Assembly (NCBI GenBank): GCA_020723085.1
Contig: DYJN01000018.1
Location: 1-64,000, forward strand
Direction: 5' to 3'
Source of the DNA: Arcobacter sp.
Lineage (GTDB): Bacteria > Acidobacteriota > Terriglobia > Bryobacterales > Bryobacteraceae
Length of the DNA: 64,000 bases
Every line of letters begins with the position of its first letter. The stretch's first letter is position 1. Shown here in pieces: positions 56,293 to 56,319 of this stretch. The translations under genes were made by a program, and so were the position numbers. The notes under the pieces are model-generated. The model had not been told where the DNA came from, did not search any database, and was given only the letters and a program-made list of their open reading frames with translations.

Positions 56293-56296
56293 GGGT

Positions 56297-56312
56297 TAAA
56301 CTAGCTAGTTTA
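56297..56312. promoter_or_regulatory. 16-bp palindrome forming a symmetric divergent promoter
   Basis: TAAACTAGCTAGTTTA is a perfect palindrome and fills most of the 27-nt gap between tgt and cysS. Each half contains TAGTTT, a TANNNT-type -10 hexamer, read on the plus strand at 56306-56311 (8 nt before the cysS ATG) and on the minus strand at 56303-56298 (5 nt before the tgt TTG). Neither gene has a Shine-Dalgarno. It may also be an operator. Confidence 0.55.
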
Positions 56313-56319
56313 GCCCCCC

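Follow-up and report, generated by a model that had tools for sequence, protein, structure and literature searches.

A palindromic element between tgt and cysS as a probable bidirectional core promoter in the Bryobacteraceae

How are two divergent genes transcribed when their start codons are separated by 27 nt? This question is raised by a gap at positions 56293–56319 of the window, the 64,000-nt stretch of contig DYJN01000018.1 that was analysed. On the reverse strand lies tgt (55084–56292), encoding tRNA guanosine(34) transglycosylase and starting with TTG at 56292, and back to back with it on the forward strand lies cysS (56320–57720), encoding cysteine–tRNA ligase and starting with ATG at 56320. 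The scores of both proteins exceed the curated cut-offs of their models, TIGR00430 for Tgt and TIGR00435 for CysS. In a collection of named genomes, where records very near the window may be omitted from the comparison, the best matches belong to the Acidobacteriota and carry the labels Terriglobia, Acidobacteria or Bryobacteraceae. Downstream of tgt the genes yajC, secD, secF and a TonB-like gene follow on the same strand. The last of these (50967–51734, reverse strand) encodes a proline-rich protein that was recognized as TonB-like by eye and has no NCBIfam match at 1e-10. On the other side, a gene of the PLP-dependent cystathionine gamma-synthase family (57752–58933, forward strand) begins 31 nt 3′ of cysS; none of the best 25 of its 43 NCBIfam matches reaches the curated cut-off. 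The start codon of tgt is TTG rather than ATG in all 20 of the relatives with a compact gap that are described below, and in the window this codon (56290–56292) stands without a Shine-Dalgarno sequence.

The gap contains a perfect 16-bp palindrome, which we propose is probably a bidirectional core promoter with two facing –10 hexamers, of the kind already known with starts about 10 bp apart. This proposal is drawn from the comparison of genomes.

The palindrome and its conservation

The palindrome, TAAACTAGCTAGTTTA, occupies 56297–56312 exactly as a sequence-only reading of this DNA had described it. Its left arm, TAAACT on the forward strand (56297–56302), is the putative –10 hexamer of cysS, with its first T at –23 from the ATG. 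The right arm (56307–56312) reads TAAACT on the reverse strand and is the putative –10 hexamer of tgt, with its first T at –20 from the TTG. Between them is the centre, AGCT (56303–56306); relatives do not keep its letters, and its length among them is 3 or 4 nt. The same reading had pointed to TAGTTT on both strands within a few bases of the start codons, and these inner hexamers are indeed present, at 56306–56311 on the forward strand (first T at –14, ending 8 nt before the ATG) and at 56303–56298 on the reverse strand (first T at –11, ending 5 nt before the TTG).

Could the palindrome have arisen by chance? Perfect palindromes of at least 16 bp number five in the window, and about 2.0 are expected at its composition, so that the occurrence of one somewhere in the window is unremarkable. 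For the 27-nt gap itself the expectation is about 3.7e-4. Allowing up to three mismatches in the window, or up to two in the whole 4.19-Mb genome, no other copy of the 16-mer is found. At 9417–9436 the window has a perfect palindrome longer than this one, the 20-bp TCAGGCGATCGATCGCCTGA. We reject chance on the conservation of the arms rather than on the count of palindromes; conservation weighs more as evidence than the chance expectation, and it shows the palindrome to be a real, selected element.

We sought cysS and tgt in 237 genomes of the family. Among the matches listed, 24 divergent gaps are shorter than 400 nt, and the 20 genomes with gaps below 40 nt form our compact set; four gaps of 66–80 nt were kept out of it. 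The set spans six genera (g1, g6, g12, g13, g16 and g59), g1 being the genus of the window. The element is present in all 20 of these gaps among the matches listed. Within the genus all five genomes searched share the identical 16-mer, and the five further genera retain the arms. The sequence-only reading had made its proposal depend on conservation in close relatives; the element is conserved there, so the proposal survives. What is kept, however, is the pair of arms, and not the perfect palindrome as a whole. Among the matches listed the left arm is TAAACT in 20/20 compact relatives; of the right arms, 17 read AGTTTA, two ATTCTA and one AGTCTA. Read on the reverse strand the three variants are TAGAAT, TAGAAT and TAGACT; thus they break the symmetry yet keep TANNNT. 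The centre varies in its letters and measures 4 nt in 17 of these gaps and 3 nt in the other three.

The strength of this constraint can be gauged from the changes inferred on a protein tree of Tgt and CysS. The 12 arm sites have three changes in all, a mean of 0.25 per site, with none in the left arm. The centre has 2–7 changes at each of the three sites counted, and in the flanks the counts per base are 0–5 over the four bases that precede the left arm and 1–5 over the six that follow the right. At the four-fold sites of residues that are invariant, the averages are 5.1 changes in cysS (35 sites) and 6.3 in tgt (70 sites), and none of these 105 sites is unchanged. All six letters of the arm are kept, which exceeds both the requirements of TANNNT and what is seen in relatives with a wide gap, and therefore more than a plain –10 hexamer may be acting. 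Three candidate causes of the near-complete constancy can be named. Each arm could also be the start-site region of the partner; the 7-bp arm TAAACTA/TAGTTTA has the form TANNNT on both strands; or a protein could bind the arms. In one relative (G196) with a tgt/cysS gap of 45 nt there are two separate hexamers and no palindrome.

Recurrence of the element at other gene starts

How general is the element? Of 121 genomes of the family, 14 contain TAAACT-N4-AGTTTA, and two of the sites outside tgt/cysS lie between sucC and trpD in g5, a genus other than that of the window. There trpD was matched in 17 of 19 genomes, and the element is present at all 17 of the sucC/trpD loci (at one, L247, sucC was unmatched by the script, though its start region is visible). 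The first arm of these is TAAACT in 17/17 and the second is AGTTTA in 14 and AGTCTA in three, with a spacer of 4 nt in eight and 3 nt in nine. By the likely start codons the gap between sucC (reverse strand) and trpD (forward strand) is 21–24 nt, and is filled by TAAACT-N3/4-AGTYTA (L114, L115 and L239–L255). We therefore reject the idea that the signal is special to tgt/cysS, since the same letters are found at sucC/trpD and at other gene starts.

Across the family TAAACTN{3,4}AGTYTA occurs in 89 of 237 genomes among the matches listed, compared with 112 for the reversed pattern and 74 for a half-reversed pattern in which TAAACT is kept and the second half is reversed. Thus the total number of sites is not above chance, but their placement is. 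A gene start lies within 30 nt at 18 of 30 real loci, with a start on both sides at six, compared with 3/61 (none two-sided) for the reversed controls and 10/39 (none two-sided) for the half-reversed. The initial 30 loci of each kind were the first among the matches listed rather than a random draw. Most of the first reversed loci belonged to genera g54 and g62, and we therefore added controls of our own choosing from the genera of the real sites: 31 reversed, of which two are near a start, and nine half-reversed, of which four are. Between real and half-reversed sites P = 0.006 (0.003 before the added controls) when sites are counted, and 0.16 (0.07 before) when gene contexts are counted. Since related sites inflate the real count, we grouped the real sites by hand into 22 gene contexts, of which 10 are near a start (P = 5e-5 against all reversed sites). 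A further 33 real sites chosen by us, 31 of them fetched by hand and none at tgt/cysS, include 21 near a start. Genes were called by a crude script using open reading frames and GC bias; it misses a trpB-like gene (L120 and L309) whose frame stays open upstream. Beyond the family but within the class, six of 15 sites are near a start.

The position of these sites identifies TAAACT as a marker of promoters. A further effect of the second arm on proximity to starts, over and above that of TAAACT, is weakly indicated, mainly by the two-sided cases and by the conservation at tgt/cysS and sucC/trpD. The genes adjoining the family sites include prfB, gnd, serA, ligA, ispG and rplU, with model scores above the cut-off, and FabI-like and peptidyl-prolyl-isomerase-like genes with scores below it. 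One genome of the window's own genus (G003, L302 at about 1200) has TAGACT-N3-AGTTTA between the starts of a valS-like and a peptidase-like gene; both models are below the cut-off, and the valS-like gene is cut by the end of the stretch.

Hexamers, start sites and rival readings

The arms offer two hexamers on each strand, an outer TAAACT and an inner TAGTTT. Which of these is the –10? Among the matches listed, the outer hexamer retains TANNNT in 20/20 compact relatives on the forward strand and in 20/20 on the reverse, whereas the inner retains it in 16 and 18, respectively; its losses require at least three changes on the forward strand and at least two on the reverse. The first base of the outer hexamer stands 22–26 nt before the ATG in 19 of the 20 and 34 nt in the other, and 19–21 nt before the TTG of tgt in all 20, again among the matches listed. 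These distances place the conserved outer hexamers outside the leaderless arrangement, where the first T of TANNNT lies about 12 nt before the start codon. A matrix built from 199 upstream TANNNT hexamers, mostly from genome G002, gives TAAACT a score of +0.47 and TAGTTT –1.40. The variants found in the right arm score higher, with TAGAAT at +2.16 and TAGACT at +0.97, and both rank with the most frequent TANNNT hexamers ahead of genes in G002 and the window (12 and 8 instances, respectively, beyond the leaderless position). In relatives whose gap is wide, cysS is preceded by TACGAT, TACCAT or TAGGAT beginning at –21 or –22, about where the outer left arm begins (–23 in the window) and not where the inner TAGTTT does (–14). 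For tgt the comparison is mixed and in this point speaks against the outer hexamer: these relatives have TACAAT 12–14 nt from the likely start, nearer the inner reverse-strand hexamer (–11) than the outer (–20). On balance we predict that the outer TAAACT is the conserved –10 on both strands. No convincing –35 box was seen by eye in the flanking codons within the window.

If this assignment is right, TAAACT on each strand, facing across 3–4 nt, would provide two –10 hexamers. The housekeeping RNA polymerase holoenzyme could then bind in either orientation, melting the same short AT-rich patch. Taking the last T as –7, the divergent starts would be about 9–10 bp apart, 9 bp with a 4-nt centre and 10 bp with a 3-nt centre, and each would fall inside the hexamer of the opposite strand. 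By hexamer position the start zone of cysS is predicted at 56308–56312 on the forward strand (56309 for last T = –7), with a leader of about 8–12 nt, and that of tgt at 56297–56301 on the reverse strand (56300 for last T = –7), with a leader of about 5–9 nt. Two divergent mRNAs would result, with leaders of about 5–12 nt and without a Shine-Dalgarno sequence. Promoter activity, binding of polymerase, the start sites and the sigma factor are what we infer, together with mutual exclusion of the polymerases. The last would be expected on steric grounds only: opposing polymerases are reported to be unable to bind together at bidirectional promoters (PMC12825309). It should not be read as a switch, because five E. 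coli bidirectional promoters tested in the same work showed no measurable competition at basal activity (PMC12825309).

We do not claim a general enrichment of paired –10 hexamers in the genus. Among 30 compact divergent gaps from G002 and the window, 10 have paired TANNNT at 7–25 bp compared with 3.3 on shuffling, but a control hexamer pair reaches 11 of the 30. In 1.264 Mb, facing TANNNT pairs are rare at these spacings, with 11 at a spacer of 4 (three near starts) and four at a spacer of 3 (none near a start). The overlapping 18-bp form, TANNNTA, occurs 154 times, 30 of them near starts, and two of the instances are the arms of the tgt/cysS site. Other compact divergent gaps are of note. 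Of three in G002 of 23–26 nt, two (L191, 6740–6762, and L194, 16844–16869) each contain a single TANNNTA with the geometry of the 18-bp class and the third (L180, 6622–6644) contains the palindrome CTACAATTGTAG. A 45-nt gap in the window (23349–23393) has, on the reverse strand, TACAAT 7 nt ahead of a TTG start, an arrangement of leaderless type.

Other readings of the arms must be weighed against the bidirectional core promoter. The sequence-only reading took the inner TAGTTT hexamers as the –10 elements, with both mRNAs strictly leaderless. We regard this version as quite unlikely, even though the 7-bp arm could serve it on either strand and the reverse-strand copy, at –11 of the TTG, is near both the leaderless peak at –12 (25 of 525 starts) and the position of TACAAT in the wide-gap relatives. 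It sits poorly with the loss of TANNNT in four of 20 compact relatives on the forward strand and two of 20 on the reverse (among the matches listed), with T at the fourth and fifth positions being disfavoured in upstream hexamers, and with the forward copy starting as far out as –14. Moreover, the end of the arm is 2–3 nt from the start codon at trpD, gnd and one transporter gene, so that there the inner hexamer is too close to be the –10. The leaderless proposal is thus displaced in its strict form by the conserved outer TAAACT, and a part of it may stand. Because the wide-gap relatives have TACAAT at 12–14 nt, the inner reverse-strand TAGTTT at –11 may be an additional, leaderless promoter of tgt, and it is possible that cysS is transcribed from the outer left hexamer while tgt is transcribed partly leaderless from the same 7-bp arm on the opposite strand. 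Its broader claim, that one element serves both genes, is borne out by conserved arms with TANNNT on each strand in all 20 compact relatives among the matches listed. The coupling of tRNA-Cys charging to tRNA modification and the secDF-tonB block that it also proposed would be a conjecture.

A symmetric sequence could also be an operator whose symmetry is that of a dimeric transcription factor; bound over the two –10 regions, this factor would repress tgt and cysS jointly. Mirror-image arms, with the left retained in full and the right almost so, would suit such a protein, and recurrence close to gene starts could equally reflect a regulon. Yet the spacing of the half-sites is not fixed, being 3 or 4 nt at both tgt/cysS and sucC/trpD, the neighbouring genes change between genera, and the asymmetric variants of the arm retain the character of a –10. 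The genome of the window has one exact TAAACT-N3/4-AGTYTA site among the matches listed, and near-copies (up to two mismatches, spacer 4) number 3–7 per genome of the genus compared with 6–21 for the reversed control; a regulon within the genus is rejected for lack of any excess. The count of near-copies, the 3- or 4-nt spacing and the changing neighbours together speak against a dedicated repressor, and we consider an operator unlikely. The arms might instead act in RNA as a 5′ hairpin, the palindrome being able to fold there, or be AT-rich sequence inherited without function. The centre is barely long enough to form a loop, and the hairpin was set aside because the letters of the centre are free to vary. 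With about 20-fold fewer changes at arm sites than at four-fold sites, and identical letters recurring at unrelated genes, we give these readings almost no probability.

Significance and comparison with known systems

What might a bidirectional core promoter at tgt/cysS mean more broadly? We suggest, tentatively, that TARACT-N3/4-AGTYTA is a lineage-specific and letter-specific class of symmetric core promoter in the Bryobacteraceae and their kin, locking pairs of housekeeping genes at a balanced and mutually exclusive output. If so, each –10 would double as the start-site region of its partner, neither strand could change alone, and tgt/cysS, sucC/trpD and other pairs would be coupled. The tgt/cysS element is a predicted bidirectional promoter that is held by selection across six genera and is visible by comparison of genomes. 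The relatives moreover form an evolutionary series, from two separate –10-like hexamers where the gap is wide to one palindrome where it is compact, and this allows a natural test of whether the symmetry couples the two genes. The motif also offers a way to locate start sites in this group, on which our literature search found no start-site paper.

The position of the palindrome recalls the autogenous control of alaS, where alanyl-tRNA synthetase binds a palindrome at its own start site. Here too a palindrome covers the start region of a gene for an aminoacyl-tRNA synthetase, cysS. Unlike alaS, the tgt/cysS element recurs beside genes that have no part in tRNA charging, and a pair of –10 hexamers would suffice to explain it without the enzyme. 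There is a second likeness to the leaderless TA-led genes of Acidobacteria, in which TANNNT precedes the start codon by about 12 nt and which are listed for 3 of 3 Acidobacteria genomes in PMC3160421. As in those genes, the putative –10 is TANNNT, there is no Shine-Dalgarno sequence and the start codon is near the promoter (PMC3160421). It differs from them in that the conserved hexamers at –23 (cysS) and –20 (tgt) predict short leaders rather than none.

The closest resemblance is to the bidirectional promoters of Warman, Grainger and colleagues. These have been recognized in bacteria recently, and the cited sections of that work cover E. coli and Salmonella. They are defined by starts 7–25 bp apart (PMC10268837), 18 bp being the commonest distance, with 10 and 23 bp also common (PMC12825309). 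As in the 10-bp class, the divergent starts predicted here would arise from one short –10 region, and their separation of 9–10 bp at tgt/cysS falls within the defined range (PMC10268837) and is close to the preferred 10 bp (PMC12825309), as far as the sections cited describe it. Unlike the known examples, the hexamers at tgt/cysS face each other without overlap as a perfect palindrome, and their letters, kept across six genera, turn up again at the starts of unrelated genes within one family. Most likely, the kind of promoter predicted here is the 10-bp class already known, and what is unusual is the constancy of its sequence.
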